Virus record (IMG/VR): IMGVR_UViG_3300018428_000059
Coordinates: 1-39,634 of that record
Length of the DNA stretch: 39,634 nucleotides
Source: a virus
Direction: 5' to 3' (one strand)
The notes under the pieces are model-generated. The model saw only the letters and a list, made by a program, of their open reading frames with translations. It was not told the origin of the DNA and searched no databases. Every line of letters starts with the position of its first letter. Position 1 is the stretch's first letter. Positions 4,887-34,646 of the stretch are shown in pieces. Both the position numbers and the translations under genes were made by a program.

Positions 4887-4913
4887 TAGTTTTTACCCCT
4901 GTTACGATATAAG

Positions 4914-4921
4914 TATTTATC
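4914..4921 (-). promoter_or_regulatory. T4-type late promoter (GATAAATA on the minus strand)
   Basis: The minus strand reads CGATAAATACT here, a NATAAATA late-promoter match 28 nt upstream of the ATG at 4886. It sits in the 47-bp gap between two fibre genes and would give the last fibre gene its own late transcript. Confidence 0.7.
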
Positions 4922-4933
4922 GTATTTTGCCCT

Positions 4934-9936: not shown

Positions 9937-9944
9937 TATTTATT
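9937..9944 (-). promoter_or_regulatory. T4-type late promoter (AATAAATA on the minus strand)
   Basis: The NATAAATA match lies 19 nt upstream of the ATG at 9918 and overlaps the stop codon of the giant gene (9940-9942). It would drive the 205-residue gene and the two coupled fibre genes after it, without depending on a full 15.6-kb transcript of the giant gene. Confidence 0.7.
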
Positions 9945-18900: not shown

Positions 18901-21900
18901 TGTTCCAAAGACAACATTGTCTGTCCTTGCTTTTACTGTTCTTCTTGCTTTATAAAGGCTGTTATTATATTGAACTATAGAACCTCTAGTATAATTTGAA
19001 CTTAAATTAAAGTTATCTTTATATGCACTTTTTACATATGTTGAATTAGGTGCTCCTACAATTAAATATTTTCCATCTGGAGACATAGTAACAGCTTCGC
19101 CAAATTTACTACTTCCTGCTGAAAAGTTTTCTGTAGGTTGAATTGTTTGTACTAACGAAAGAGTTCCATTTACAGTGCTTCCGTCATCTTCTCGTTTATA
19201 AACATAAACTTTTCCGTCTCCGTCTAACGGTGAACCAACAGCAACAAATGTTCCATCATCTTGCGATGTAATACTTTCACCATAACTTTGATCTGTAATA
19301 GTTGGATTAACTAAGTCTTCGTCGAAGTTATACGATCCTTCTGCTTTAATTACATTCCATTTTCCAGTTAATGTATTATCTATATTATCAATCCACAGTA
19401 ACTCTCCAGGATCAATATTATTTTCGGCATACTGGTTAGAATCTGTTAGAGTTGCTACACGATTAGAAACAAATTTAGTTATTGTACCTGACAATCCAGT
19501 TTCTTCTTGTGTTAAAGATGCTTCACCTAGTTCTATAGTTACTTGATTAAGTTCACTCGAGACTACTTTATAAAATCCGTCTATATCTACAACATCTATA
19601 ATACCTATAATATCACCTTCTACAAAGTTTGATAACTTGTCTAGTGTAAGTATTGCTGTAGTGCCAAGTGGCGTTGCTGTTGTAATTCTAAATTGTGTAC
19701 CTATGTGCTTATAAACATTCCATTCTTGGCCTTCAAATGTAACCCAAATATAATCTCCTTGTTTTACTTCTTGCAAATCAAGTGTTAAAATGTCATCTTT
19801 ATTTTTTACAGTCCATTGTACGTCACTTTCTCTGACATATCCTGCTGTCTTAAATGCACTATCTGCTCTATATTTGGTAGGGAACGGAGTGTGATCATAG
19901 TGTGACGGCTTTAAGTAAACATTATCTGGTGTTTGTCTATACACTAAATCGGTCTCAGAACCGCTTATACTGTCTACTAATAAAATAGGTTGTGGAGATA
20001 ACCTAAACTTATCTTCCTCTAGTAAAAATTCAACTTCCTCAAATCCGTCAGCAGCACCGTATTGTCCAACTTTTACAGCCCACTCTTCGTAAAATTCTAG
20101 GCTTTCTTTATCAGCTGCACCTAATGCATCAAATAATTTTGTTAACGCATTTTTAGTACCCTTATCAGCAATCATTCCTTGATAGAACTTATACTGACTC
20201 ACATCGTCATTAATAATATTTGCAAGATATTCTCTTTTTTGGTATCCGATAAGGTGCTGTGCAATTTCTTGCTGATTTACATCAAAGTTATCTGTATCTA
20301 AATCGTAAAAGTCTGCAAACTGATTGGTTTTATATTCTAAGTTTGTAACAAGTCCTGGTTGAGGTTTCTCGTTCAATTTATACCAATTAGCATTATTAAA
20401 AAATTCTACACCAGAAATTTTTGTAGTTGCAGTATAATAAAATTCTTTATATTTTACAACATCACCAATTGAATAATCTTTCCATGGTGTCCATTCTGTT
20501 ACAGTTGCTTGATCGTAAATAAATCCAGGAATATTTAATCCGCCGGACCAATCTGCTGTTCTATAACCCAAAACACGAATACGTTCTTGTCTATATCCAG
20601 GTGCTGGATCGTATATTGTATCTTTAAATACAGTTTCATTATCAAGAATAACTACATGCTCTTTTCTAACAACAGGTAGTTTTAAAGCATACAACCCGTC
20701 AGCTGTATTTTTTAATGTTAATTCAAAAGCATTATCTTGTGTTCTAGATATATTACAAAATTCTCTTTGAAGTTTAGTTCCATCAGCTTTAACTATTCCA
20801 TAATCGTAAAATGAATCAAAAATATCATCAACTACAGCATATTCGTTTTTATACGAAACTTTCTGTGCCGATGGACTTAAACTAATAAGAGAGCCCGGAT
20901 CCCAGTTCTGTGTTGTCCAGAATAAAAACTCTCTTGCACTTAATTTCCAATTTTCTACACTTTCAATTTCACTGTTATGATTATCAAACGTAAAACCTAA
21001 TGATTCAAGATATTCGCCATAACCTAATAAAAAGTCAACAACTTCTTGGCTTGTCTTTAATACTGTTCCGTATGGTAATTCTTGAACTGTTCTAGTTTCA
21101 AACGATCTTCTAAATAATGCACTTCTTCCACCAACAACGGGTAATGTTGGTAAGGATGCAAATTTAGTACCATCGAAGTTAGTACTACTAGTATGGGTAT
21201 CTGTTGTTCTAAAATAACGATTATTATAACTTACAACAGTACCTTTTAAATAACGCTTATTTGAATCCCATTCTATAAATGTTTCACTGATGCCACCGAC
21301 ATTGACTTCTGGATCGCTATCCGATACAACATAATTAAAGTACTTAAACACAGGGGAAGTTGCATCATACCCTCTAATAATATATCCTGCTGATGATTTT
21401 TCTACTACTACTGCACTATAAGAAACCAATTCAATTGGACTACTAGTTGTTAAAACAACATCAAAGTTTTCTTCAGGTACAAATACATTGCCTTTGTTTA
21501 ACGGTGTTCTAGAATCTAAAATTAAATTAAACTTAGTTTTATCAGTAAACCCACCAACTTTAAATGCCATTTGGTTTGTAATTCTTGAAAGGTTTTCTTT
21601 ATAAGAATTAAAGTTTACTAAAATATTACTTGCTAGATAATTGGAAATAAAATTTATCAATCCAGAACTATATACCCTAATATCACTATCAGGACTAGTT
21701 GGAAAAACTAAATCTGCTAAACGCAAACGTTTATTAGTTTCGCTATAAACTAATTGACCTGCACTATTTCGAACAGTTCTTAATCTGTCAAAAGACAAAC
21801 CAATGATCTTACTAGGCTGATTTAACATCCATGATTTTAAAAGTGAAAATGGGTATTCAGAACTTTTCCTCCAAGCAGTTTCTGCAGGAGCATGATCTCC

Positions 21901-24900
21901 AAAGGAAAACGATCTTCTAGTAAAGGAATTTACATAGTTTCTTGCATACTTACTATCTAACGGACTTAATAACTGACCTTGATTATTTACAGGCAAATGG
22001 CTTGTTAATCCAGGACGCATAAATTCTGTTTTAATTATTTTATTTTTATTTGGCTCTGCAATTACGCCCTTTTCTAAGTCTTCCCACATAATTAAGTTAT
22101 TACTAGTATAAGGAGCCGGGCCGTATTTTTCTTCCCACCATTTTGGTTTAATACTAAATCCTAGCATTTCCCAAGGATGTGTATGTGGACGATCAGTGTC
22201 GTATGCATACTTGTACACTGCTCTCCAAAATCCAGGTAATAGCTCACCGGATGGTGATTCCATACTTCCATAATTATATGTAAACGAATTATTTCTATTG
22301 TAAAAATCAAAAGTAGTATAATCTATATCACCAACTACACTTAACCAAGATGCAAAATCTTTAAGCATTGTCGAGTTAATATCTGTTCTCGAAAATCCTG
22401 TATTACGATGCTCACCGCCCTGATATTCGTAGATATCTATAATGTCATCGTCGTATTGAACTTTTAAGTTGTTGTAAATTCTTTTTTCTAATTCTAATAT
22501 TAGATCATCTCTATAATCGCCGTAGGCTTTAGTTATAGATCCGTCATGACCTTGTATTACTTCTGTTGGTTCAATATAAGTATTATCAACAAATTTAGAC
22601 GGAACATACTTAGGATATATGCCTAACTTAGTAGGTGTAGGAGGAATATAGCATCCATCGGTAGAGTCATATTCATATATTTCTACTATATCACCTTGTG
22701 CTAAAGGATATGTTATAATACAAAACCCTTCTTCGTTAAATGTATAATCGTCTTCAAAGATAAGTTGTACATCATTAACATATACATTAACCGCTCTTTG
22801 AGAAATAGTATCTAAAGAATAAGGCTGATTTAAGGCAAAATAAATATTTCCTTCTTCAAATATTTCGTATACTAATTGCTTTGCTCCAGAAGTTGGAGCC
22901 ATGTCAGAAAAGTAAAACGGAAGATTATTATTTTTATTCTTGTTTAATTCTCTAAAAATTAAATCGACATGTGCTTTTGGTGTTCCGTCAAAACCTAAGC
23001 TGTCTGCTGTTTGTATAAACAATCTTTTAAACTTAGCATATTCTCTTCTAGAAAAATCTATCGCCTTAATAATATTTGCATCTTTATTTGTAATATGATA
23101 TAGCGAAAGATTAATTGGCCCAGAATGTTGTAAAAACTTTCTACCAAATTTTGAAATATCACCTAGGTCTCTTAAATTTCCTCTCCCAGGATAACTTCCA
23201 AAAAATTCTTCAGCATCTTCTGCTATAGACGCTACATGATCGTTTACTTCGCCTAGTGTAAATGAAGTAATGTCATCATTTGCCGGGTTCTTTTCTAGAT
23301 TACTAGGTAATTCATACAATCCGTTGTTATTTTTAACTGCCGAACTTCTTGTACGTAATACTACAACATCGCCAGTTTCTAAGGGAGTATTAAATCTTAC
23401 AATAGCATTTTGATCTTTAATAATTTCAAAATCTGTTACGTTAAATTTAATTGAATTGTTTACTGTAACACGAATTATTAAATCGTCAAGTGAGCCGCTA
23501 TTTTCGTAAACATCGACCTCAAAATCTGTTTGATCTTGTTCTGCTACGTATTGTCTTAATACACGTTGCCTACTTTCTGTATCAGTTTTAGTCCATCCGT
23601 TAACATTTTGAAACGTTGTTCGATCTGAATACTTCTGTAAAACACAAACGTCTGTTGAACGTGATAATGTATCTAATCCGTTAGTATATGTAAAAGAATC
23701 TGTTAAGAGATTAAAATCAAAAACTAAATCTCCGATATTTTCAATACTACGATAACTTAACGGAAATCCTAATTCAGCATCAACTATACCTGTACCTTGT
23801 CTATAAGAAAATATCTTATTTCCTGTAAAGGTACTGTTAGGATAATATTCGGTATTCCCGTAACTATTTCCGCTTTCGTCAAACAGGTCAAAAAGAGGTT
23901 GCTGATTTACTGTTAACTTTTCTTGGGCCATACTCCAAGAAGTTCCATTATAGTAAAACATTTTTCCTTGATAATTTTGACCGTTTAAAACCAATACTGT
24001 TTCATTTTCTAAAGGAAGTGCGTCACTTTCTTCTATTAAACTAATTTGACGTCTACCTTTATGAGTTAAAAACTTAATTTTAAAGATTTTACCTGCTTCT
24101 CGAATATCTTCTTCAGCAGTAAACAATACACGCATACCGTCTACAAGTTTTACTCCGTCTATACTATAACCTAATGCACCTTCTACGTTAGAAAAAATAT
24201 CTGTTGTAAATGTATCTACTAAGTCCACATTTGATTTATTTTGTGTTCCAAAGTTAAACAGTTTTAATCCTGCATTAAATTCTATAATAGGTCTTGTTGC
24301 ACGAGCTGATTGATCAACACTTACTTCTTGATTATTAATTTTTGCTGCTAGTTCTATAACATCTCTATGGAACCATCTATTATGTCTTGACCATGAATTT
24401 CTATCTGCACTAGAACGATTTATTACAATATAATCTTTTGATGATGCATAACCTGTAGCATTATCAAAAGGTAATCTATCAAATGCATTTACGTCAAAAG
24501 GAATATCTTTGTTTTCTGAAAACCCTGCTGGTATTTCTAAATCTGATTCGGCAATTAATTTTATAGAACTACCAACACCTTCTATATACCATTCTGATTT
24601 AGCGTATTTTTCTGGAGTAACAAACCCTGCAAATGATACTTTCATGCCATTAGAAAGTTCAACACCAGATTCTGTTTTGTATTTTCTTTTACCTAATATT
24701 TCTTTTTCGATATTAATTTCTGTATTCTCTTCAATATCTTTTATCTGAATAAGCCCACTATTATTAATATCGTTGTCAGCAACATAATATAATATTTCAG
24801 GAGCATTAACAGAAACATCAAAAGTAATCTTTCCTTGTTCTACACTTTGATTATCTATTCCATCGTTATATTTGAAAGAATCATCTAATGTTCTTTTTGT

Positions 24901-25557
24901 TTTTATACTAATAGGAGTACCAAGAGTGTCTATTTCAAAAGTATACTTTTGTCCTCGATATAATATTAATGTTGGATTTTGTACAAGTTCATCTGTAGAA
25001 AATACAAAAGCACTGTTGTCTAAATTATTTGCTAATGTAACACCAATAGTACTTTCAATACCTCTTGCTTGTCCAGCAATTCTAATTGTTTGGGGACCAT
25101 ATGGTAACCAATAATACTCTCTAAAGTTTGTAAACTTGTCCCAATCTATATTTGCATTCCAAGAATAGTTTTCTTGTGAATTTAGTAGATCTTGATTTTT
25201 TACATTTCCACCAAATGTTTTTAATTGATTTAAATAATCATTATAATCTTTATAATATGTTACATTTTCAAGATCGTCTTTAACTAATACTGCGGGTTCA
25301 AACTGATAGTCTTGTCTTTCTTGTGTAATATCGCCAACATAGTTATCATCAGCATTATAAGCCTTAGAAACTATACGACCATAATAACCATTTAGTTTTT
25401 CAGCAACACCAGGTTGTGTTAATTGATCTAGTGTTGATTGTAAAAACTTTTTGTTTATATCAGTTCTAAAATAGCGAGGTAATAGTGTTTCGCTCTGTCT
25501 AGATTTTTTTCCATCTGCTGGTAATGGATATTCGTTCTGATTATTTTCGTAAGCCAT
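9940..25557 (-). CDS. Giant (5205-residue) baseplate/tail structural protein in the gp7 position
   Basis: A single uninterrupted frame of 15,618 nt directly follows gp6 (TAATG overlap at 25555-25559; GGAGGTG upstream). In T4 the next gene is 7, whose product is a ~1030-residue wedge protein; this one is about five times longer. Residues 1-170 (including ITQERQDYQFEPAVLV and WDKFTNFREYYWLPYGP) resemble the N-termini of large marine myovirus structural proteins. Internal modules: four chitin-binding (CBM5/12)-like segments near 1428, 1690, 2180 and 2976; FG-GAP/beta-propeller-like repeats near 2089-2172 and 3054-3285; Gly-rich GxGYxxxP repeats near 3680, 3721, 4028 and 4067; and about eight 'VxxNGxxL..DY..GD' beta units from 690 to 5172. 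Residues about 4970-5062 hold a segment like those in phage baseplate proteins (GVLFIDGERIEYF, LRRGTLGT). It may absorb roles of several T4 wedge or fibre proteins. Virion location is inferred from context. Confidence 0.85.
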   Translation of the reverse strand: MAYENNQNEYPLPADGKKSRQSETLLPRYFRTDINKKFLQSTLDQLTQPGVAEKLNGYYGRIVSKAYNADDNYVGDITQERQDYQFEPAVLVKDDLENVTYYKDYNDYLNQLKTFGGNVKNQDLLNSQENYSWNANIDWDKFTNFREYYWLPYGPQTIRIAGQARGIESTIGVTLANNLDNSAFVFSTDELVQNPTLILYRGQKYTFEIDTLGTPISIKTKRTLDDSFKYNDGIDNQSVEQGKITFDVSVNAPEILYYVADNDINNSGLIQIKDIEENTEINIEKEILGKRKYKTESGVELSNGMKVSFAGFVTPEKYAKSEWYIEGVGSSIKLIAESDLEIPAGFSENKDIPFDVNAFDRLPFDNATGYASSKDYIVINRSSADRNSWSRHNRWFHRDVIELAAKINNQEVSVDQSARATRPIIEFNAGLKLFNFGTQNKSNVDLVDTFTTDIFSNVEGALGYSIDGVKLVDGMRVLFTAEEDIREAGKIFKIKFLTHKGRRQISLIEESDALPLENETVLVLNGQNYQGKMFYYNGTSWSMAQEKLTVNQQPLFDLFDESGNSYGNTEYYPNSTFTGNKIFSYRQGTGIVDAELGFPLSYRSIENIGDLVFDFNLLTDSFTYTNGLDTLSRSTDVCVLQKYSDRTTFQNVNGWTKTDTESRQRVLRQYVAEQDQTDFEVDVYENSGSLDDLIIRVTVNNSIKFNVTDFEIIKDQNAIVRFNTPLETGDVVVLRTRSSAVKNNNGLYELPSNLEKNPANDDITSFTLGEVNDHVASIAEDAEEFFGSYPGRGNLRDLGDISKFGRKFLQHSGPINLSLYHITNKDANIIKAIDFSRREYAKFKRLFIQTADSLGFDGTPKAHVDLIFRELNKNKNNNLPFYFSDMAPTSGAKQLVYEIFEEGNIYFALNQPYSLDTISQRAVNVYVNDVQLIFEDDYTFNEEGFCIITYPLAQGDIVEIYEYDSTDGCYIPPTPTKLGIYPKYVPSKFVDNTYIEPTEVIQGHDGSITKAYGDYRDDLILELEKRIYNNLKVQYDDDIIDIYEYQGGEHRNTGFSRTDINSTMLKDFASWLSVVGDIDYTTFDFYNRNNSFTYNYGSMESPSGELLPGFWRAVYKYAYDTDRPHTHPWEMLGFSIKPKWWEEKYGPAPYTSNNLIMWEDLEKGVIAEPNKNKIIKTEFMRPGLTSHLPVNNQGQLLSPLDSKYARNYVNSFTRRSFSFGDHAPAETAWRKSSEYPFSLLKSWMLNQPSKIIGLSFDRLRTVRNSAGQLVYSETNKRLRLADLVFPTSPDSDIRVYSSGLINFISNYLASNILVNFNSYKENLSRITNQMAFKVGGFTDKTKFNLILDSRTPLNKGNVFVPEENFDVVLTTSSPIELVSYSAVVVEKSSAGYIIRGYDATSPVFKYFNYVVSDSDPEVNVGGISETFIEWDSNKRYLKGTVVSYNNRYFRTTDTHTSSTNFDGTKFASLPTLPVVGGRSALFRRSFETRTVQELPYGTVLKTSQEVVDFLLGYGEYLESLGFTFDNHNSEIESVENWKLSAREFLFWTTQNWDPGSLISLSPSAQKVSYKNEYAVVDDIFDSFYDYGIVKADGTKLQREFCNISRTQDNAFELTLKNTADGLYALKLPVVRKEHVVILDNETVFKDTIYDPAPGYRQERIRVLGYRTADWSGGLNIPGFIYDQATVTEWTPWKDYSIGDVVKYKEFYYTATTKISGVEFFNNANWYKLNEKPQPGLVTNLEYKTNQFADFYDLDTDNFDVNQQEIAQHLIGYQKREYLANIINDDVSQYKFYQGMIADKGTKNALTKLFDALGAADKESLEFYEEWAVKVGQYGAADGFEEVEFLLEEDKFRLSPQPILLVDSISGSETDLVYRQTPDNVYLKPSHYDHTPFPTKYRADSAFKTAGYVRESDVQWTVKNKDDILTLDLQEVKQGDYIWVTFEGQEWNVYKHIGTQFRITTATPLGTTAILTLDKLSNFVEGDIIGIIDVVDIDGFYKVVSSELNQVTIELGEASLTQEETGLSGTITKFVSNRVATLTDSNQYAENNIDPGELLWIDNIDNTLTGKWNVIKAEGSYNFDEDLVNPTITDQSYGESITSQDDGTFVAVGSPLDGDGKVYVYKREDDGSTVNGTLSLVQTIQPTENFSAGSSKFGEAVTMSPDGKYLIVGAPNSTYVKSAYKDNFNLSSNYTRGSIVQYNNSLYKARRTVKARTDNVVFGTFDSASRWRSELYKLYGDYTDIKLLATGDVPLIDTTTDHILVRAPIDAYEGSNIGDRLYLGWDNISHNYNPISEVSIVGIDLSASPMKLITDTAHNLEDNDEIIITDVPNDNITILVDQFDNSDPNIPFDTLEQEGVKGLENVKFFVKVLGNDYLEIYYDEDLTLPVNPNIGFSGEPIGPRLGSGELANPLGGDFNGFLRKINKPFNNKLPGIDKTFFETNVHTIRRKVEEVFYVVDPLNIPSVSAGDTVTTPTGNATVVYVKNELGRLVVYANDKNGIFEETGTLYINDTFLIGEYTRPLHEPVDRSSILGGYWEIATGFNYNPNGIITDNGHGLVIKDIKNNFDPNTFSNPDATWHESVDILPYKNSIDTRYEIPVEILAGVDKPFQKETDIVRVLSHQSRGIAGAGTQTFLDNRWIVRLPKNVSDKATSAFNDPQSPSPYIGVWLNDIPGTSGTLPDLSAKGFGDNPYNIINKVQVPVDLWDGYIDYDIFAEIDLVPGDIVREGTTGATAEVVLYQRDLDKARIYVKNVTGDFSFGSRYIDGLAPTSMYLNKDEGNGQLRRIGTTESRQLADSDIGKIAVFQHTEQLPLPERFILPLNANVSDEIGIYETEFISGIEYLTWIEEFKPGLPRTPLVPSNSNNDWEEVDNIPINTNRAASEVVREGAFFVYEKDDVLDRYNFINGFILPNREEGRELASSLKIIQSGDFYKLVINSKETHTNDITTNPGRGRLYFVVNGTDIYGKTYNWTVGRDTNFKGIYSNVSDYYQDQIVVYNNVFYRALTNIQAEEFNSNKWKVLGDHVDFIGYLPNTTGLVIPSDIESIADLTTTAYGRTFDISDSGNILATIAEYSDRNKLVIYRLKNSHFEIIQEFDAPLEARSYGESVVVSDDGNIIAVGAPNTDADQPYQGRVYVYKNVNGTYQQSQILNSPNKEQTEGFGINLGFDGNQLVVTSARGDIILDTTYDRFQDTSNTLGRYVNDPNSPLSPVETIFDKGFTKFAKRIVDSGVVYIYENINNSLVYGQRLEYTDFSVVNFGKDVLVKNNKIYVGLPTINNGSGPGKVAVYHRQQDQKIWNVIRSPIDQPEVDKFRGSFIYNTKTNLLLSRLDIIDPVAGKISGLAEQELSYKTYFDPAFYNVGNQTEKTKYTTWGEKQVGELWWDLSTVKYVDYNQGSVIYSQSVWGSLATGSSIDVYEWVESNIAPDVWDQRADTNLGSARGISGTSKYGTSKYVEKDVYDPISQGFVKKYYFWVKNKRVTPDIESRRRSSYDVANIIRDPAGQRLKFVTILGNDRFILYNCNKSLSDSDVAINFRYWTIDNQENNIHNEYQIISEGLSTSKPKSVIEDKWIDSLIGSDKYHRPVPDPTLSVKQKYGSLNRPRQSWFVNRQEALKQYVERVNRVLKDQLILDNFDTTKLFEKDPVPTFISGHYDTAIDTEQELEFVGTVRAATAILQPVIEDGVVTSVTIVNGGRGYRIAPTIKINGTGENLELKPILNNLGIITSVEIINGGTNYTDSLTLTVRPLSVLVRADSTNNGGWTIYGWNPDTRVWSITNKQYYDVSEFWKYKDWYLTGYSALTGIDFLIDDYYQLSGLNDDLGDIIKISNVGSGGWILLEKIVNLDSPDLSTGYRTVGREGGTIEFLSKLYLEDDNAVELRKIIETIRDDIFVDELAEEYNQLFFASLRYVFAEQNYVDWAFKTSFIKAKHNVGTLEQRTTFQNDNLESYEDYVNEVKPYKAKIREYLSSYDTIDNTQSVTTDFDLAPFYDKELNKIVAPEVAIQDGVLIGINFDETLYPAKHWLDNFTFEVEAIEIQDGGTGFTQVPNVIISGGGGTGAKAKAFIGSGSVKSIVITDPGSGYTSPPSVEIVGTQEDGGLQPRLSVILGNNKVKHYSITQKFDRTSPNYEFLNLSEVEEFTSGGIELKLTLKWPMDLTRANIKVFFDGTEALSSEYSYNNETIKQKQGTKTYTRQLGYITLTQAQPVGTVIRVEYNKSYNLLNAADRINTLYNPETGQYGKDLGQLMSGVDYGGVEVRSFEFGSDLGFDSQPWYTSAWDTYDENFEDETFYTDGSTKRFQLSKPLEAGEQYNVYINGIRVDDVNYDGSTKTYLAEDGVTIVALGNPNAIMKTVTTEESSYVTDIDDDGNPRYFVVIENVEEFEEYYTDTAFEAPKDQVVVIRKASSDGSFLPASGFDSLIEGGNLAYGTATGLDAADITIDGDGFITPTTSAGPEELVPGQLLDTLDMKVYDRAGDGSSLITTRNYTATATINQEFFLETLPHNKQAVIVKVNGSILEVDEDYEINFVENKVVMNNPLTVGDRINISSIGDNGEALIDISAFTGTGEKLEFITNVVYRENLSSYITIDGVNASASIYETDNGMLGLRFVTAPPANSFIHYSLFDATNAVSGITSYSEITIDKHIGDGSTVIFNTDPAPFSKLPLSHNIVVRVDNKILYPGYTQHWFIESGREYPLDSAQFGPSTLSPDQVDVYINGEKLGLLTDYRWDFANTQVVLFDNVGQIGDDLEIFVPYTSEYSFSQNTEVILANVNGSFVPGETVEIGTGDSTIISATVKTYNNNRLELIGPYPELVEQFDDDPSIPVEGTESGAISNNMLSVTLIEAGDNIVLNDIPAQDAEIVIYKFSKHDIQDLQIETRVNAAQGNLVAGTDDYYDFRRLNNGLIKLRQPAISTAYLWVTLNGELLTPNVDYRLAKMDEYVQIIRKVEPDDRIQVIHFAGSKTNAKFGYRMFKDMLNRTHYKRLNQDKVYLLAQPLGITDKVIELDDATGLTLPSTELNIPGVLFIDGERIEYFQVDGNTVSQLRRGTLGTSPKLSYIAGTEIMDQGITESIPYTDEMVTLIKLEDESTQIVLDWIPTKGVDEFEVFVSGKRLRKNAISAYQFQKVDSDGNLIQDFINQDSPEGDTILPPEFELTITDDNVAIITLLNSPEANSRVLIVRKIGKLWQNPGEQLRYAKNSIAEFIRGATTELPK

Positions 25558-28500
25558 TAGTAGCTAACACCTCCACTTGAGCTTGTAATTCCTGTAACAG
25601 TTTCAGAATCTACAAATATTGCACCTTCTGCTTTTAGTTTAGATGCTGTTAAGGATGAAATAACTTCTATGTTATCAACTGTTGCTGAACTAATAAAAAT
25701 CTCGTCTGCTTCTGATTTAATTTCAAACATACTACCAAATGCAAGTGATGTTTGCACTGGCACAATAACTATCGTTGCAAGATCAGGCGATAGTTTATTC
25801 ATAATGTAAGTACTAAGTTCTGAAAAGTAAAATGTATCTCCGAACTCCCAGTTTTCAATAGCAAAAAATTCATCAATTGCTGAAATTACATTTGCTTTTA
25901 ATTCGTTATCGTTAACTACTCTATCAGTATTTTTAACAATTTTAAAAGTAGCTTTTAGATCATCAGATGATTCATTTCCAAAAAGTACTTTATACTTAAC
26001 TGGATGATATATTACTTCATCACTTATTGATTTAATTTTGTTTATTTCAGAACCAAAGTTTGTAAACAATGCATCACTACTAGGTGCTAAAGGTTTAGTT
26101 GTTGTTACACCTGATAGGAACTGTCTAAACTGTGTATCATATTGTCGAGTAAGCATATAAATGTCAATAATATTTGAACTACTAGGATCAATTCTATTAC
26201 TTTCATCTGCACTGTGAACATATTGGAATATAATATTGTCTCTTCCGTTATATGCACGGTAGTTAACTACTAACTCAAGTCTTTCTGTTTCTGTATTGTA
26301 AATCTTAAAAATGTTTTTATCAACAATATAAAAAACTGTATCTGCAGGATAGCTTGATACACCGTTATCTGTTATCACAGTTTCTGTGTCAACTATTACA
26401 ATCCCTGCATCTACCTGATTTACATATCTAAAATCATCAAGATTGTCACCTGTTATATATTGCTCTAAGAATATCCATTTATCTGCATTTCCTGAAGCAA
26501 CAAATTTATCAAAGATTTCAGGATCATCAACTACGCCGTCGTCGTCTGAATCGAAAAATCCAACTTCAATTTTTTTACTATCGACATATCCTTCTTTATC
26601 TCTAAATTCGTTAACAATTTCCCATACAAAAGGAACTGTGAACGGAGTTAAAGAATATCCGCCTTGATTATCTGGACTTTGGTTAATTGACATTAACGAA
26701 ATCCTATCTTTAACAATTTCATTTGTTGCCGGGTCAAATACTTTATCGCCGCTATCAAAATAGAATCTTATTTCTTTATCACTTTCAAAAATATAACGCT
26801 GTCCTCTGTAAGTAATCGTATAAGTTTCGCCATCTGTTTGGAAAAGCAATAACCAGCTAGAATCTAACTGTTGATTAGTTAAGTCACCAGTTTTACCAGT
26901 ACTAAATTGTGATACTACATCTAAGTTATTTTCTAATACAACTCTCCATGTAGAAGTATTAAAGTCATATCGTAGACCAAATGTTTTATATGTAAAAATT
27001 TGATCAGTTACTTGTGTTATAATTTGAGGTTCTAATTCTGTTGTAAAAATTGGTTTAATTTCAGAAAGCAATGCACCTGAAGGTATTATATCGTTAAAAA
27101 CAATAGGTCCTAATCCATCAGCAGTTACATCTATTCCTGGGCCGCTAACACTAACAACCTTAACCCATTTATATGTAGTTGATCCCGGATGATTTGCAGG
27201 TCCTGACATTAAACTTCCGTCAGGCATAAAATGCTGTCCCGGTGGAGAAATAAATTTTAACATTGCACCAGGAGACAAATATTGTAGTGTAGAACCTGTA
27301 AACGAACTAACTCTTAACTTTGTATTATCAGTATCTGTCAAATAACCTGTAGTAATATTTTGACCTTTTGTAATTTGATTCCAAGTTCCACCTAGGTCAT
27401 TAACTAATATTTTAGGAAACTGAGCATAATAAAAATTTCTTACTTTATAATCTTGTAAAATATTTTGAATCTGATTCCTAATAACCCCTTCAATGTCTGT
27501 TCTAGTTGTAAAAGTAAATGTTTCTTTTGTATTTAGAGTTTGTGTATAAATCACTCCGTCTTTACCATAAAGATTTGTTTTACTGTATTTTCCAGTTGCA
27601 TCTAAAAGATCATAATATCTGCTGATTCCGCTTGAAGTTCTGTTTACACTTTTAACTTTTACAATTTCTTGGCTAACTGATAATGGCGCTACATTGTAAT
27701 CTTCTCCAGTAACCATTCTGTTTTGTGTATAATATGTAGCAGGTGCTCGAGTTTTAATCTCATCGTTGGTTTCGGAGATACTAGAATTATCAATTGTATA
27801 TTTCAGCTCAAGACCGATTGTTAACGATTCGCTAGTCCCTGATTTTGTTTGGTAAGGAATAGTAATTGTAATACCTATTAGTTCGTCTGGAGTTATAACA
27901 TAGCTTCTATTAGAACTAACTCTATAATAAACTTTAAATGACCCTTTGGGTAAATTACCAAATGTACCATCAGAGAAAATTAAACTAATTCTATCTTCGA
28001 CACGAGTTAATACACTGTATATGTCTCTAATATTTTTGTTCAGACTATTATAAACAATATTGTTTCCTTCTACAGCTTCAACTTTAGTCCACAAATTAGT
28101 TTCGTTTCCTGTAGAATCAAGTTGATAGAGCCAAGTGTCTGTGTTATTAACATTAATTGCATCTATAGCAACTACTTGATTAGTTGAAGGATTAGTGATA
28201 CTAAACTCGCCTTGATCTAATCTTCCTTGACGGAAGTGTGCAAAAAATCCTGTGTTGTTAGATGCTGCACCTTGTCCGTCATCTCTATACACAAACGCAA
28301 AACTGTTACCAGGTAAGGGAGGTTCTTCTACAATAGAATTACCATCAATATCAGTACTAACAATTTCAAAGATTGAGGATTGTCCATCTACATTTTTTGT
28401 AAAGGAGTATATAGGCAAATCTGTGTTAGTTGCGTTAAGTCTATACTGCTCTGCGCTTACACCATTAACTGTTCCTGTTTTTACAGGTCTTCCGTAAACA

Positions 28501-29003
28501 CCGTTGGCCGGTAATGCAGAATTTAATACTTTAATAAATTGTTCATACCAGTCTTGGTTAGAAATATCATTCCATATAATAGTCTGTCCTGATAAGTTTG
28601 TACCGTTAGAATCATAAATTTCTTCTGTTGTGCTAACAGTTTCAAACTTTAGCAATCCGTTTGCAGTTGTATTACGTTTAGGATTATAGGAAAGCAATCT
28701 TGCTAAACGTAATACACTTTCACGGCGTTCTGCTAGTTCAAGAAAATTTTCACGAGCATTTAAGTCAATACGGAAACTAATATTTTGACCTAGGAAAGCA
28801 ATAAGGTCTATTAGTGCAAGGTATTCACTGGATTCAATGTAGTCGTTAAAGTCCTCCGGATAATTTTGACGGAGGTAGTTAATCATAGTTCTACGCAAAT
28901 TATCAAAGTCGTAGCTTTGGAAATCTGCATTACGGAATGACTGGTAGATACGCTTCCAATCTTCTGATAATAGTAATCTGTTTTGTCTATCTGTTGAGGA
29001 CAT
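25557..29003 (-). CDS. 6: Baseplate wedge protein gp6-like
   Basis: A 1148-residue homologue of T4 gp6, which dimerises to join baseplate wedges into a ring. The N-terminus is the clear signature: LSEDWKRIYQSFRNADFQSY, NYLRQNYPEDFNDYIESSE, then ALIDLIAFLGQNISFRIDLN and ARENFLELAERRESVLRLAR. The C-terminus (near 1080-1120, VPVQTSLAFGSMFEIKSEAD, then ISSATVDNIEVI) also fits gp6. T4 gp6 is about 660 residues, so there is a large central insertion. Around residue 815 it holds an Asp-rich loop, DSDDDGVVDDPE, like calcium-binding loops of thrombospondin type 3 or dockerin repeats. A late promoter lies at 29027-29034 and AAGGAAA before the ATG. It follows gp25 as in T4. Confidence 0.9.
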   Translation of the reverse strand: MSSTDRQNRLLLSEDWKRIYQSFRNADFQSYDFDNLRRTMINYLRQNYPEDFNDYIESSEYLALIDLIAFLGQNISFRIDLNARENFLELAERRESVLRLARLLSYNPKRNTTANGLLKFETVSTTEEIYDSNGTNLSGQTIIWNDISNQDWYEQFIKVLNSALPANGVYGRPVKTGTVNGVSAEQYRLNATNTDLPIYSFTKNVDGQSSIFEIVSTDIDGNSIVEEPPLPGNSFAFVYRDDGQGAASNNTGFFAHFRQGRLDQGEFSITNPSTNQVVAIDAINVNNTDTWLYQLDSTGNETNLWTKVEAVEGNNIVYNSLNKNIRDIYSVLTRVEDRISLIFSDGTFGNLPKGSFKVYYRVSSNRSYVITPDELIGITITIPYQTKSGTSESLTIGLELKYTIDNSSISETNDEIKTRAPATYYTQNRMVTGEDYNVAPLSVSQEIVKVKSVNRTSSGISRYYDLLDATGKYSKTNLYGKDGVIYTQTLNTKETFTFTTRTDIEGVIRNQIQNILQDYKVRNFYYAQFPKILVNDLGGTWNQITKGQNITTGYLTDTDNTKLRVSSFTGSTLQYLSPGAMLKFISPPGQHFMPDGSLMSGPANHPGSTTYKWVKVVSVSGPGIDVTADGLGPIVFNDIIPSGALLSEIKPIFTTELEPQIITQVTDQIFTYKTFGLRYDFNTSTWRVVLENNLDVVSQFSTGKTGDLTNQQLDSSWLLLFQTDGETYTITYRGQRYIFESDKEIRFYFDSGDKVFDPATNEIVKDRISLMSINQSPDNQGGYSLTPFTVPFVWEIVNEFRDKEGYVDSKKIEVGFFDSDDDGVVDDPEIFDKFVASGNADKWIFLEQYITGDNLDDFRYVNQVDAGIVIVDTETVITDNGVSSYPADTVFYIVDKNIFKIYNTETERLELVVNYRAYNGRDNIIFQYVHSADESNRIDPSSSNIIDIYMLTRQYDTQFRQFLSGVTTTKPLAPSSDALFTNFGSEINKIKSISDEVIYHPVKYKVLFGNESSDDLKATFKIVKNTDRVVNDNELKANVISAIDEFFAIENWEFGDTFYFSELSTYIMNKLSPDLATIVIVPVQTSLAFGSMFEIKSEADEIFISSATVDNIEVISSLTASKLKAEGAIFVDSETVTGITSSSGGVSY

Positions 29004-29060: not shown

Positions 29061-29507
29061 TTATGCCAAGATACTGTTATCTTCGTCAAACTTAAAACGC
29101 ATATTTTCTGATATATTATAGGGCAAGTATGTTAAAGAACATTCAATCATAATGCCACTTTCGTAGGTATCAACAACTACTTCGTCAACTTGTACTCTTG
29201 GATCATAGTTAATAATTGTAGTAACATTAGCAGCAATAGCCTGTTTTAATCCTTCTGTCATTGGTTCAAACAATACGTCCCAAATTATAGTTCCAAACTC
29301 TGGATTTTCTAATTTTTCCCCCATACGAATGTGAAAATGATTAATTATGTCTTGTTTAATTAGAGCAATGTCATACAAATTAAAACTTGTATTTTCGCTA
29401 TTAGCCGTAGAAATACCTCTATAAGCTCTACTAGTAACAGGTTCAGTAGGTTTCTTATTTGATTTTATTTGGATTTCTTTGTATAACTTTTTCTCTAATG
29501 TGCTCAT
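29061..29507 (-). CDS. 25: Baseplate wedge protein gp25-like
   Basis: A 148-residue member of the T4 gp25 (GPW_gp25) family, the wedge component that touches the sheath and is conserved in contractile injection systems. Diagnostic stretches are DIINHFHIRMGEKLENPEFG, then TIIWDVLFEPMTEGLKQAI and NYDPRVQVDEV. The length is close to T4 gp25 (132 residues), with a slightly longer N-terminus. It lies between gp5 and gp6. The ribosome-binding site is weak (AGGC), and a CTAAATA motif sits only 6 nt before the ATG, so expression is more likely by read-through from upstream. Confidence 0.92.
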   Translation of the reverse strand: MSTLEKKLYKEIQIKSNKKPTEPVTSRAYRGISTANSENTSFNLYDIALIKQDIINHFHIRMGEKLENPEFGTIIWDVLFEPMTEGLKQAIAANVTTIINYDPRVQVDEVVVDTYESGIMIECSLTYLPYNISENMRFKFDEDNSILA

Positions 29508-29528: not shown

Positions 29529-32021
29529 TTATGGTAGTGGCCAATCCTCCGGATCAGTGTTTCCTACTTCTGCTTCAATATCTTGTCCAGTAGGCTCAGG
29601 TGAAATGCTTGCTAACGGTACTAAGTCTCCCGTAATCATCTTACTAGCAAAGCCTCTACCTAATCCTATACGATTTCTTGTTTCAGCGCCGCCTTGGTTA
29701 GCATATCCGATTGCTCTACGGAATTCTTCGCCAAGTGCTGCATAATCATAACTGTCCCAACTTATTGATTTTGACTTAATATATCCTACAGCAAGTTTTA
29801 CTGCAACTTCTGGATCATTTGCTAAATCGGGGTTTTCGACCACTTGTGGTACACCACCTAATCCGCCATATCTTCTATAATTATCTTTAAAGGTTAACTG
29901 TATTAACCCTCTACCACGATACTTATAACCTTCATCTTGAGCGTTACCGTATCTACCTCCGTATAATGTATTACCTATTGCAGCAGGACCTGCTGCGGCA
30001 AGTTCTTGTGCAAAAGCATCAGTTTTAACACGACTAGGAAACACTGCACGTAATCTTGAAGCACTATAATTTAAGTTTTCACTTCTCGGTTTAAATCCAC
30101 ATTCTGCCATCGGTTGTGCCATAGCCATACCAAGTGCTTCTGCATTACCCGGAGTTTCGCCAGGAGCAAGTCTATTAGGATCTGCTGTTTTAAGTGCATT
30201 AGCAGGATCTAAGCCTACACCTTTAATAAGTTCACTTAAGAAATATTGTTGCAAGTCTGTAACAGGAACAGGTTTAGCAGGCTGATCTCCTATTGGTCCA
30301 ACTTCTCCTGGTACAACAGTCTGAGGGGCTGCAACTGTATTACCACTAGCATCAGTGACTGTTCCTGAATTGGCTGCGGCAGCGTTCGATTCGTTAACTG
30401 GTCCTGCATCGCTATCTGTATTAATTAACGGTGTTGTTTCCCTTAATGCAGGACTTGGACTTGAACTTGCTTGTGTTTTACTCGGAACAAAAGTTAACGG
30501 ATCTAGATGTTCATGTCCTAACCACGGTTCGTGCACCGGCACACGTACTGGCCAAAGCGCAGATGCTGCGACAGCAGCTTGCGCAGCAGTATCTGCTTCA
30601 GATGCAGAATCAGCTGCTGGCCCGTTCAAATGTATATTAGTACCAGTTGCTACAATATCGCCACCAGCGGCAATATCTGTTTCTCTACCTGAAGTAAAGT
30701 AATTATATCCGCTACTTAAAATTTCTAAATTAGTTTGTGTATGTCTATAGTCTCCAGCAGTGTTAACATCATACGGGCCTTGATTTGTTAATGAATGTTT
30801 TCCAGCAACTATCTTATCTCCTTTTGCACCAATGTATATTTTTTGATCTGCACCAACATAGTGATCTTCATTTGCGCCAACATCCATTTTATGATCGGTA
30901 CCAACTTTAACATCACTATTTTGTCCAACTGTTAATTTATAATTTCTAACAGCATTCATATTAATATCACGTCCTGCTGACATATTAATATCTCTATCTG
31001 TGCTTATGTTTAAGTCATTTTGTGATCTAATACTAATACTATCTTGTGCATAGATATCAATCTTTCCGTTAGATGTTAATTCTATCCAAGCACTTCCTTG
31101 TGCATTGGCAATGTAAATTAAATCTTCACTATTATGTAATAATATTTGGTGTCCGGTACGGGTTCTTAAACGTACTAACTCATCTGCAGGAAGTTGAGGG
31201 ATACCGCCAGTTTCTTCATTTGTAATATCTGCATATTCTTTCCTGCCTTGACCTGCATAACTTTTTCTCAGTTTTGTTTCGTCACCGTCGTCGAATACTA
31301 AACTACTCCCTCCAAGTCTACTTGCATATACCTGAGCTCGCTGTTCTGTAGGTCCTACGGCAGCCCTCGGTGCTCCTGGTCGCTTATCTTTTGGTCCAGG
31401 AGTGCTAATACCAAAAACACTCGACGGTACTTCTCTTCTAGATGACGAAGTTCCAGGTCCTCGCACATTATCATATAGTGTGCCTTGCCTACCTAAAATA
31501 GTATAAAAGTCTGTGTTAACAGGCTTAATATATTTTGTAGGGTCATTGCCTGCGCCTGTTTGTTGACGTTTGTTAAATTCTCCTACAGGTAATTTTTTCG
31601 TATTGTCTTGATTGTTATATTCAGTTCCTGCCCACGGATCAGGAGTCATCCAATTCATATAAGCAGGCGGAACACACCCAATCCAATATCCTTTACTAAT
31701 ATTTCCTTCAGCAAACATTACTAAAACTGTAGTGCCAACATCTGGTGGTATAAACCACATTCCGTAACTTTTTTGTGTAGACTGAAAATTATCATTATCT
31801 AGTACTGCATTTAATGGAGTTGTACCATAGAAGGGAGACAAGTATTTTACTGTGACAATTTGTCCGGATCTTTCAGCTTGGTTACCTGATGTTGTATGCT
31901 TTAATAATTCTACTTGTAAAGTACCCATGTACTTAGGATCAAGTTGAGAAACCACAATCGCTTCATACGGACCTGGATTTCTAACGCTTTTTGGATTTGC
32001 TGGACGATTCTCTGTACTCAT
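29529..32021 (-). CDS. 5: Baseplate hub/cell-puncturing protein gp5-like with C-terminal GH19 lysozyme domain
   Basis: An 830-residue central spike. Residues about 15-130 are an OB-fold domain as in gp5/VgrG proteins (YEAIVVSQLDPKYMGTLQVE, MWFIPPDVGTTVLVMFAEG, GYWIGCVPP). Residues about 270-480 are the repetitive beta-helix needle (IDIYAQDSISIRSQNDLNIS and many further short GxDxxx units). A Ser/Ala/Pro-rich linker follows. Residues about 600-810 match glycoside hydrolase family 19 chitinase/lysozymes: AECGFKPRSENLNYSASRL with probable catalytic Glu640, NTLYGGRYGN, and YRGRGLIQLTFKDNYRRYGG near 697. T4 gp5 instead carries a GH24 lysozyme between OB fold and needle. The start overlaps the upstream stop (ATGA). 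It should locally degrade peptidoglycan as the tail tube penetrates; activity is inferred. Confidence 0.9.
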   Translation of the reverse strand: MSTENRPANPKSVRNPGPYEAIVVSQLDPKYMGTLQVELLKHTTSGNQAERSGQIVTVKYLSPFYGTTPLNAVLDNDNFQSTQKSYGMWFIPPDVGTTVLVMFAEGNISKGYWIGCVPPAYMNWMTPDPWAGTEYNNQDNTKKLPVGEFNKRQQTGAGNDPTKYIKPVNTDFYTILGRQGTLYDNVRGPGTSSSRREVPSSVFGISTPGPKDKRPGAPRAAVGPTEQRAQVYASRLGGSSLVFDDGDETKLRKSYAGQGRKEYADITNEETGGIPQLPADELVRLRTRTGHQILLHNSEDLIYIANAQGSAWIELTSNGKIDIYAQDSISIRSQNDLNISTDRDINMSAGRDINMNAVRNYKLTVGQNSDVKVGTDHKMDVGANEDHYVGADQKIYIGAKGDKIVAGKHSLTNQGPYDVNTAGDYRHTQTNLEILSSGYNYFTSGRETDIAAGGDIVATGTNIHLNGPAADSASEADTAAQAAVAASALWPVRVPVHEPWLGHEHLDPLTFVPSKTQASSSPSPALRETTPLINTDSDAGPVNESNAAAANSGTVTDASGNTVAAPQTVVPGEVGPIGDQPAKPVPVTDLQQYFLSELIKGVGLDPANALKTADPNRLAPGETPGNAEALGMAMAQPMAECGFKPRSENLNYSASRLRAVFPSRVKTDAFAQELAAAGPAAIGNTLYGGRYGNAQDEGYKYRGRGLIQLTFKDNYRRYGGLGGVPQVVENPDLANDPEVAVKLAVGYIKSKSISWDSYDYAALGEEFRRAIGYANQGGAETRNRIGLGRGFASKMITGDLVPLASISPEPTGQDIEAEVGNTDPEDWPLP

Positions 32022-34339
32022 GTTGCTATTACACCCGATCTACCGTCGCCTAACGAAGTATCTTGTTTAGGTGCAGATTGTAATGCGCTGCCATCACCTG
32101 CTGTTCCAGGTTGGCCTACTTCTGCTTCTTGATTTGGTCTTCTAACGACAGACAATATTTGAGAAAATTTATTTCCTTCAATTCTATTTTTTACAAGGTT
32201 AACCCTGTATAAACCACTAAATGCTTTCACAGGAACAGTATCTCCTGGAAATATCATTGTTCCTTTTGATTGACTATAATCTATAGGTGTTCTAAAATTC
32301 AATACAATATCAACTTCTCCTCGTTGGTGATCTATAGTTCCGTCTTCTGTTGTTCCGCTACCTGCACTTGGGCTACTGTAGTTTCCTACACCACTGTCTG
32401 CAATATAATACGGATCACCTAAAATTGTTAATTCCATACTTAATAAATCTACATCACTGTTAACGATTGCTTCATTAAACTGTCTTGCAACTTGTATTGC
32501 CGTATTTGAATAGTCGGCGCCGCCTTCTTGTGCAGAACCGTTTGCTTCGTTTGATTCTCTTGCAGCATTAGTTCCTGACGGTACGGAGGTTGCATCAGCA
32601 CCTTCGTTTGCAACATAACCACTGTTTTGTCCAGACTCGTTTGTTCCTGAATTTTGTTGTTGTACTACACTGGCATTTGCCAATCCTCCATCTGGAGCAA
32701 TTGAGCTATAAAAAGCATTATTAATTGTTATTTCAAAATCTATAATATCTTCGTTTTGACCTGTATAGATATAATTGTATTCTTTAGCTGCTACAAGTTT
32801 TCTTTCTTCTACACCAACACTAGGTCTTGTTGGGCTTTGAAATACCGAACTATGTACAGAATAAGGAACAATCATGTAAACATATACCTTAGGATTTTCA
32901 CCTGTTTTTCGCAGCATCTCTGCATCAGGAACAATATAACATTGTGTTTGTACTCTAAACCAAGGAATATTACCATTATTATCCTCTTCTCTTTGAGTTG
33001 CTGCTTGCTGACCGTATGTACTTAGAATTACTAGTTCTTCAATAATTTTTTCAATGTTTGTTCCTTGAGGAAATTGAAATGTTCTAAATTCATTTGATAT
33101 TTGTATTCTACCGTTATCAAAGAATATTGTTCCGTCATCATTTTCTTTCTGCGTAAACGCAGGAACACCAAACGGAACACTTCCACCTTCCGCCATAGAC
33201 CTAGCAACATTTGCTTTTCCTATCGAATTTATTGTGGCGTCATCTGCAACTAATGCTCGCACTGCGGCAGAGATATTATTATCTGATGCTTGTAAATTTA
33301 TATACGGAGCAGCTACTTCATTAACTCTTTCTATTTCTTCAGGATCTGCTTCGCTTGACGGAATTCCTGTAATCCGTGTATAAATTTCTTCAGGTGTTGC
33401 TGTTGCTCCACTTTCTTGTCCGCCGGAAGCAACATTCGCAAGTCCTAAACCAGATACTAATTCAGTCGGAAAAATAATTATATATTCGTCTTTAGTAAAT
33501 GATTCATTTTTTTCGGCTCTTTCTCTATTACGTTTGTTTATGATGCCTGTTAAACTATCTGGTCCTTTTTGCAAAAGTTCTACAAGATTGTTTCCAGTAA
33601 TTTTAGTTTCTACGTTAACAGTTTGCACTGTATTACTTTGTGCTTGTTCATTCCATGCATATGCTTTTACAGTGTATCTAGATCCTCCGGCAGTTACATC
33701 AAATTCAACATTACTAATTTTAATAGGAAGGTGTCTTACTGTTTTACTATTAGGAACCGGATTTCCTTTATCGTCATAGCCTATAAATTCTATAGAAAGC
33801 ATATATGGTGCCCTATTGTAGTTCGCATGGCCTGCATTTCTTGCTGCAACTTGCAAGGTTTGCAAAAATAATCCCATACTGTAAGGCTCGTGTACTTCAA
33901 AACTAATAACATTTGCATTACTTGTTCGTGTTTTATTAGTTGGAACTATAACTGAATCAATTTCAATATTATCGATAAAATATTCAATTTGTGCATCAGC
34001 TGTTTCATATGCTGTTCTTGCTTTATTGCCTGCACCACCACCTGATCTTAAAACAGTTACAGATGGTGGTGATCTTCTATACGACTGATCTGGAAAATTA
34101 ATTTCACTAGGTGTTAAACAGGATAGCGTAACAATAGAATTAAATGTTGCATACCCTCTTAATTCATTAGGTTGTTTGTTTACAGAATATAATAGCTTAG
34201 GGGGAGTTTGTCTAGCATTGGAAGTATTTTGTGCCGCAGCATTATCTCCCGCGCCGCTACCAACAGAAGCATTTCCAGATTGAACTGTTACATTTGACGA
34301 AGAACTTGAACCTGCTGCGGTATCTGCTGGATCTGGCAT
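32018..34339 (-). CDS. Large baseplate protein, candidate hub (gp27 counterpart)
   Basis: A 773-residue protein between gp53 and gp5. It has a Ser/Ala/Asn-rich start (residues 1-45), then beta-rich segments: VISFEVHEPYSMGLFLQTLQ, YMLSIEFIGYDDKGNPV and KISNVEFDVTAGGSRYTVKA in the first 250 residues. The C-terminal part (MELTILGDPYYIADSG near 640, then GEVDIVLNFRTPIDY, PGDTVPVKAFSGLYRVNLV and GNKFSQILSVVRR) reads like the receptor/hub domain of tail hub proteins, which often end in a 'Y.V..V....F..GKF.Q.L...R' strand pair. No separate gp27 is seen next to gp5, so this protein may fill that role; this rests on position and pattern, not alignment. AGGA lies about 9 nt before the ATG. Confidence 0.7.
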   Translation of the reverse strand: MPDPADTAAGSSSSSNVTVQSGNASVGSGAGDNAAAQNTSNARQTPPKLLYSVNKQPNELRGYATFNSIVTLSCLTPSEINFPDQSYRRSPPSVTVLRSGGGAGNKARTAYETADAQIEYFIDNIEIDSVIVPTNKTRTSNANVISFEVHEPYSMGLFLQTLQVAARNAGHANYNRAPYMLSIEFIGYDDKGNPVPNSKTVRHLPIKISNVEFDVTAGGSRYTVKAYAWNEQAQSNTVQTVNVETKITGNNLVELLQKGPDSLTGIINKRNRERAEKNESFTKDEYIIIFPTELVSGLGLANVASGGQESGATATPEEIYTRITGIPSSEADPEEIERVNEVAAPYINLQASDNNISAAVRALVADDATINSIGKANVARSMAEGGSVPFGVPAFTQKENDDGTIFFDNGRIQISNEFRTFQFPQGTNIEKIIEELVILSTYGQQAATQREEDNNGNIPWFRVQTQCYIVPDAEMLRKTGENPKVYVYMIVPYSVHSSVFQSPTRPSVGVEERKLVAAKEYNYIYTGQNEDIIDFEITINNAFYSSIAPDGGLANASVVQQQNSGTNESGQNSGYVANEGADATSVPSGTNAARESNEANGSAQEGGADYSNTAIQVARQFNEAIVNSDVDLLSMELTILGDPYYIADSGVGNYSSPSAGSGTTEDGTIDHQRGEVDIVLNFRTPIDYSQSKGTMIFPGDTVPVKAFSGLYRVNLVKNRIEGNKFSQILSVVRRPNQEAEVGQPGTAGDGSALQSAPKQDTSLGDGRSGVIAT

Positions 34340-34343
34340 CTAC

Positions 34344-34646
34344 TTAATATCCTAAAAATTTTTGCAAATCATCTGCCTTTGGCAAATAAATTTCTATTCC
34401 TGTTTCTAAATCAAAAACAGGATCTTTAATTACATCCATATTTCTTTGTGCAAAGACCCACCATAACTTGGGAGTTCCGTACACAGAATAAGCTAAAAGA
34501 TCTGGTCTATGATTAAACTGTGGCTGTACTTTATATAACACATCGTCATCACTTGCAGGCACAGACCTGATTGCTAATGTGTCCAAGTATTGCTTATTAA
34601 CTACCCTAGTGTTACCATAAGGACTTGTTGACGTATATTTTGCCAT
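34344..34646 (-). CDS. 53: Baseplate wedge protein gp53-like
   Basis: A 100-residue protein with the T4 gp53 signature: NHRPDLLAYSVYGTPKLWWV followed by FAQRNMDVIKDPVFDLETG and IYLPKADDLQKFLG. The pattern of a LysM-like fold (DLLAY..YG...LWWV.A..N...DP......G..I..P) is typical of gp53 and related wedge proteins. T4 gp53 is 196 residues, so this is a short form keeping the core. Its ATG overlaps the stop of the tube-cap gene (TAATG at 34644-34648), with GGAGGA upstream inside that gene. gp53 completes the baseplate wedge and helps ring formation. Confidence 0.85.
   Translation of the reverse strand: MAKYTSTSPYGNTRVVNKQYLDTLAIRSVPASDDDVLYKVQPQFNHRPDLLAYSVYGTPKLWWVFAQRNMDVIKDPVFDLETGIEIYLPKADDLQKFLGY

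Follow-up and report, generated by a model that had tools for sequence, protein, structure and literature searches.

In bacteriophage T4, the central spike protein gp5 carries a GH24 lysozyme embedded between its OB fold and its needle, and the precursor is cut on maturation. A different arrangement has been known from RaK2-like jumbo phages since 2013, when gp078 of RaK2 was described as a beta-helix followed by a C-terminal lysozyme (PMC3622015), and in 2017 CBB_240, which also has a C-terminal lysozyme after its helix, was detected in virions by mass spectrometry (PMC5259590). We have confirmed the order OB fold, helix, weak M23 domain and GH24 in GAP32 (GAP32_234) and in Vibrio phage 2.275.O. 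In phiKZ, gp181 has been described as a needle-like device that punctures cells and has glycosidase activity (PMC5380687). Finally, the ‘evolved’ VgrG proteins of the type VI secretion system (T6SS), which have a C-terminal effector domain, work in a similar way, with enzyme cargo attached covalently or loaded at the end of a spike resembling gp5, although this is a bacterial secretion system and its effector TseP is a separate protein.

Here we analyse a 39.6-kb virus record (39,634 nucleotides, hereafter the window), itself a fragment, which encodes a gp5-type spike with a GH19 domain after the needle. We regard this domain as probably a peptidoglycan muramidase associated with the virion, attached to the far end of the spike by a tether and needing no cleavage of the T4 type. 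Since an enzyme after the helix is already known from RaK2-like phages, only the combination of GH19 with the tip position is new, and a comparison with T4 alone overstates the novelty of this spike. In the open-licence literature searched, we found no description of a GH19 domain on a baseplate spike, nor of one at the tip of gp5.

Genomic context

The gene of the gp5-type central spike, or baseplate hub (open reading frame P0001; minus strand, 29529-32021; 830 aa), lies among other baseplate genes on the same strand. It is preceded by a gp53-like baseplate wedge (34344-34646; PHROG_7145, E 2.6e-25; PF11246, E 1e-3) and by a virion structural protein in the place of the hub (32018-34339; PHROG_11190), which is gp27-like by position only. 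The next gene after gp5 is a gp25-like baseplate wedge (29061-29507; PF04965, E 3e-8), followed by a gp6-like wedge (25557-29003; PHROG_10646, E 6e-301) and by a giant structural protein of 5,205 aa (9940-25557; PHROG_10938) in which a CBM_5_12 module (E 1.4e-7) and, weakly, an FG-GAP repeat are recognised. This gene order is identical in PA5oct, and in GAP32 it is identical up to gp6.

The isolate phages with a tblastn match to the spike half have genomes of about 280-490 kb in whole-genome records, and one relative of the clade sits on a 261.8-kb contig, from which we infer that the window probably comes from a jumbo phage. Further along the minus strand, three consecutive tail proteins of 863, 724 and 729 aa (2295-9297) have an N-terminal stretch in common (PHROG_15511, PHROG_14394), probably a common attachment module. 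A 552-aa protein on the plus strand (521-2179) starts with an Mtd_N domain of the major tropism determinant type (E 2.5e-9).

Domain layout of the spike

By homology at the sequence level, the protein is a gp5-type spike with the features of the gp5/VgrG type, namely an N-terminal OB fold, a triple beta-helix on its C-terminal side and a baseplate gene neighbourhood. The OB-fold domain (residues ~16-135; minus strand, 31617-31976) has a Phage_base_V (PF04717) match over the Pfam cut-off at residues 84-117 (E 4.8e-5) and a PHROG_13211 match at residues 20-208, and it can be aligned with the gp5 proteins of PA5oct, GAP32 and Atu_ph07. The triple beta-helix or needle (residues ~281-470; 30612-31181, minus strand) is matched by VgrG among PDB sequences over residues 283-383, and by DUF2345 and Gp5_trimer_C at 308-414 (E 2.5e-6 and 5.7e-6, both below the Pfam cut-off). 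In the AF2 model of residues 1-535 the mean pLDDT was 53.7, a poor value, which is not surprising for a single chain taken from a trimeric helix, with 80-90 across residues 320-460; fold matches of this low-confidence monomer model to VgrG, T4 gp5 and R2 pyocin spikes are supportive only.

Between both domains, residues 136-280 (31182-31616, minus strand) hold no enzyme domain: we found no Pfam match there, and no large insertion relative to the 477-aa gp5 of PA5oct, itself enzyme-free. Nor did Pfam give a match to Phage_lysozyme GH24 (PF00959) anywhere in this spike, leaving the slot of the T4 lysozyme without its GH24. The initial annotation had proposed the order OB fold, beta-helix, linker and GH19 domain, with enzyme family and position both unlike T4 gp5, and Pfam, PHROG and PDB sequence matches bear it out on both counts: the OB fold and the triple beta-helix of a central spike with a muramidase-type enzyme are common to T4 and the window, but T4 places a GH24 after the OB fold and ahead of the helix, in a chain that is cut, and the window has a GH19 after the helix. 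With RaK2, CBB, GAP32 and 2.275.O the window shares a homologous OB fold and helix that enclose no lysozyme, and an enzyme placed C-terminally; those phages, however, have a GH24 (PF00959) preceded by a degenerate M23-like domain and lack the E-P-W-x-x-H tip peptide described below, whereas the window has GH19 only, without M23.

A GH19 domain of the endolysin subfamily

The GH19 domain spans residues ~591-800 (29622-30251, minus strand). Its Glyco_hydro_19 match in Pfam (residues 696-747, E 1e-4) reaches 22.6 bits and falls below the 25.5-bit cut-off. This match is not due to chance, because the endolysin family PHROG_181 matches the domain with an E of 2e-32, GH19 endolysins in the PDB match it by sequence (E 1e-12 to 5e-9), three relatives exceed the Pfam GH19 cut-off at the equivalent place, and the AF2 fold agrees. 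A GH19 profile match, on which the assignment in the initial annotation depended, is thus found in PHROG, in the PDB and in the Pfam matches of the relatives. The model, which covers residues 551-830 and was built from an alignment of 28 sequences (window and related loci), gave a pLDDT of 83.9 and a pTM of 0.78 for the domain. Its best PDB fold matches are GH19 endolysins (9eoi, Z 15.6; 8p8e, 15.4; 4ok7 from SPN1S, 14.8), and the GH19-like T6SS effector TseP also matches (Z 14.1).

The GH19 family also includes chitinases, one endolysin has been reported to accept chitin (PMC8547705), and the giant structural protein of the window carries a CBM_5_12 module, all of which would fit a substrate other than peptidoglycan, such as chitin, a capsule or an envelope glycan. 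We consider this very unlikely. GH19 endolysins match the fold with Z scores of 13-16, versus 8-10 for chitinases and about 6 and below for lytic transglycosylases, and endolysins outrank chitinases by sequence too; R690 and G698 correspond to R109 and G118, markers of the endolysin subfamily, and the characterized PaGH19Lys has muramidase activity but none on chitin (PMC12329726).

Glu640 (30102-30104, minus strand) occupies the GH19 proton-donor position (E49 of ELYS) and Glu648 (30078-30080, minus strand) that of the catalytic base (ELYS E58) in alignments to 4ok7, 9ms6 and endolysins. Glu640 had been put forward as the general acid, and it does align with the proton donor, its catalytic role being putative; the motifs MAECGF with Glu640, ENLNYSA (Glu648), YGGRYGN (687) and YRGRGLIQLT (701) also lie where they had been placed. 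Besides both glutamates, Y106, G123-R124-G125, Q128, T130, N134 and Y135 of ELYS correspond to Y687, G703-R704-G705, Q708, T710, N714 and Y715, and within the clade none of these residues varies except in the residue spacing loop; E640, E648 and T710 thereby stand for the endolysin-subfamily set E49, E58 and T130. Previous reports disagree on which glutamate is acid and which is base. A table of GH19 positions lists E49 as the donor in endolysins (PMC8547705), whereas for PaGH19Lys the acid was named as E60, equivalent to Glu648, and the base as E51; an E60Q change abolished most activity (PMC12329726). Both positions are required either way.

A decayed enzyme, retained solely to cap the spike tip structurally or to serve it in binding, might be suspected from the loss of the +1-subsite histidine (ELYS H48), which is Ala639 in the window and its close relatives. 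Such decay is hardly credible, as both catalytic glutamates and the water-coordinating threonine show no variation among 28 relatives and dN/dS values are low (for the GH19 domain about 0.04-0.15 across nine pairs, comparable to the OB fold). Residue 639 (30105-30107) is alanine in the clade of the window and histidine in a deeper sister clade (L056-L080), and H48 is 93% conserved in GH19 endolysins, thus not an absolute feature (PMC8547705); its replacement may tune substrate or activity.

Every one of the 23 distinct full-length clade members (IMG/VR loci) keeps the layout from OB fold to GH19. Mean pairwise identity over 27 clade members is 0.64 for the OB fold, 0.75 for the base of the helix, 0.44 for the helix, 0.74 for the tip region (residues 488-510) and 0.67 for GH19, and falls to 0.46 in the C-terminal tail (residues 801-830; 29532-29621, minus strand), where none of the 30 columns is invariant and the pLDDT stays below 50. 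Purifying selection acts on the GH19 domain. In one relative (L031), the 3′ end of gp5 encodes an additional Thr/Ser-rich extension of ~120 residues past GH19.

Tip peptide and linker

After the helix comes a conserved tip peptide, RVPVHEPWLGHEHLDP (residues 493-508; 30498-30545, minus strand). In the clade of the window it follows the pattern P-x-H/R-E-P-W-x-x-H-E, and 11 of the 23 columns of region 488-510 are invariant, with a dN close to 0. Together with a second homologue scan, seeded with PA5oct, that contributed 80 more loci, an EP[WYFC]..[HE] peptide was found after the helix in 62 of 67 distinct homologous spikes; it was observed in the window, L083, L086 and L087-L166. Seventeen of the 67 are bare spikes ending within 45 residues (1-43) of the peptide, and 24 run past it into GH19 (23 of the window’s clade plus L087); others continue into a GH24 recognised by Pfam or into unrecognised modules. 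Since spikes often stop just after the peptide, the enzyme is an appendage to a spike that is complete without it.

The linker that follows (residues 511-590; 30252-30491, minus strand) has invariant G, P and Q positions, and consists of a part that varies in length and sequence (511-565; mean pairwise identity 0.41 with gaps) and a conserved block, VVPGEVGPIGDQPAKP (566-590; 0.58). With low dN/dS in the enzyme and a variable linker ahead of it, the former has evidently been preserved and the latter left free to change. Fully stretched, a tether of ~80 residues would measure about 28 nm (at 0.35 nm per residue), which is ample for reaching the wall from the tip.

How a lytic domain placed after the needle is released or positioned, and whether this gp5 is cleaved as in T4, had been raised along with its description. 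The GH19 part could be cut off at maturation, for instance within 566-590, and then work on its own, either free as an endolysin or as a distinct enzyme of the virion: processing is known for T4 gp5, the variable linker 511-565 is probably exposed, and the short conserved G/P-rich block ahead of the enzyme could be a processing site. We judge this unlikely, since that block may do no more than pack against the enzyme (pLDDT 64-82), the GH19 domain has no start or gene of its own, and the cleavage in T4 serves an embedded lysozyme that is absent from this spike. Moreover, at least one relative (G002) encodes its own endolysin-like GH19, a second and separate protein of 303 aa with a peptidoglycan-binding-like tail, which is likely its lysis enzyme, so that the spike GH19 need not serve lysis. 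Unlike the embedded T4 lysozyme, an enzyme beyond the needle on a variable linker would need no cut to be freed, and the question of release seems less pressing than it first appeared.

For the tethered muramidase that we favour, the following sequence of events can be proposed. By homology, three gp5 chains would build the OB folds and the triple beta-helix, and each chain runs on past the tip peptide into the ~80-residue linker and then GH19, so that, to judge from trimerisation in the family, three enzymes would hang at the membrane-facing end of the spike. On sheath contraction the spike would cross the outer membrane and carry the GH19 domains into the periplasm, where they would cleave the bonds between MurNAc and GlcNAc, Glu640 acting as acid and Glu648 as base, and open the wall locally for the tube. 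The tether would thus take the place of the T4 solution, exposing the enzyme without proteolysis.

Origin of the spike GH19

In our trees, the GH19 domains of the clade form one well-supported group (100/99), separate from the tip GH19 of L087 and from the GH19 of gp181-type proteins and endolysins. Giant tail proteins of the phiKZ gp181 type (OBP_276 and others; 2,200-2,500 aa) are large virion proteins that also have a GH19 near the C-terminus, but the likeness to the window spike seen here lies in that domain; we take the OBP_276-type proteins to be homologues of phiKZ gp181.

The best phage match of the window GH19 (40.7%) is on another gp5, that of Synechococcus phage BUCT-ZZ01, where however GH19 occupies the T4 slot, after the OB fold and before the helix, and the C-terminus carries an M15-type domain. 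A scan for relatives of BUCT-ZZ01 found none. A single gp5-borne GH19 lineage that moved within the protein was considered, as a first tree joined both domains (86/80, long branches); the join was lost once GH19 sequences from Brachyspira and Saprospiria were added, with an AU test p of 0.30 for holding the two together, and we no longer regard this idea as supported.

Cargo at the spike end in relatives

The nearest isolate spike by sequence is gp350 of PA5oct (34% over 468 residues), detected in virions by mass spectrometry according to its record. In contrast to the window spike, its 477 aa end after the tip peptide, and an M15-type peptidase is found instead on the PAAR protein gp239, whose C-terminal domain is annotated as a muramoyl-pentapeptidase and which the record also places in the virion. 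In other relatives the spike end is a cargo site for GH19, GH24, a lambda-type lysozyme plus trypsin, or unrecognised modules. The gp5 of Atu_ph07 (L086:3905-6502) has a lambda-lysozyme-like domain (1am7, E 7e-6) and then a trypsin-like protease at its end, an unusual spike cargo (PF13365, E 6e-17), and in Sinorhizobium phiM7 gp98 the OB fold and helix are followed by a region matching the Atu_ph07 lysozyme. The tip modules of L098, L122, L124, L152 and L155 (150-370 residues, several of them mainly helical in appearance) gave no PHROG match and no Pfam match beyond the helix; the tails of L098, L122, L135 and L155 had no PDB sequence match, and that of L135 no PHROG match.

These observations, comparative and drawn from sequences, show that the layout of T4 is only one among several ways of arming a contractile spike: within one homologous family, the wall enzyme is found in mid-spike, beyond the needle, on the PAAR cap or at none of these places, and it comes from several unrelated families. 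This wider pattern of one spike end with many cargoes, sometimes on PAAR, would outweigh the single protein described here; it links phage spikes to the way in which T6SS arms VgrG and PAAR with cargo, and offers natural contrasts for testing how enzymes are positioned during penetration. More tentatively, and with some doubt on our side, the far end of the spike in these large myophages could be a standardised dock for unrelated wall-attacking modules, or the PAAR tip could carry them instead, as T6SS loads VgrG and PAAR, with the peptide letting the chain leave the helix and seating the PAAR cap; a PAAR seat or a tip lock is a possible role of the peptide.

A strict either/or between enzymes borne by gp5 and by PAAR was rejected, because in L097-type phages a bare PAAR directly follows a bare gp5, and any complementarity between the two is not strict. 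The window, being a fragment, contains no PAAR gene, and most of 30 records, whose contigs are mostly fragments, gave no PAAR match. Where found, PAAR caps are about 90-100 aa long in G001, Atu_ph07 and BUCT-ZZ01, and PAAR-type open frames of 104-114 aa occur in G007, G008 and G017. The PAAR gene of PA5oct (L226:2102-3124; NC_071039.1, 164101-165123) lies directly after that of ribonucleotide reductase beta, and in G001 a bare PAAR is found near a ribonucleotide reductase beta gene as well (L170).
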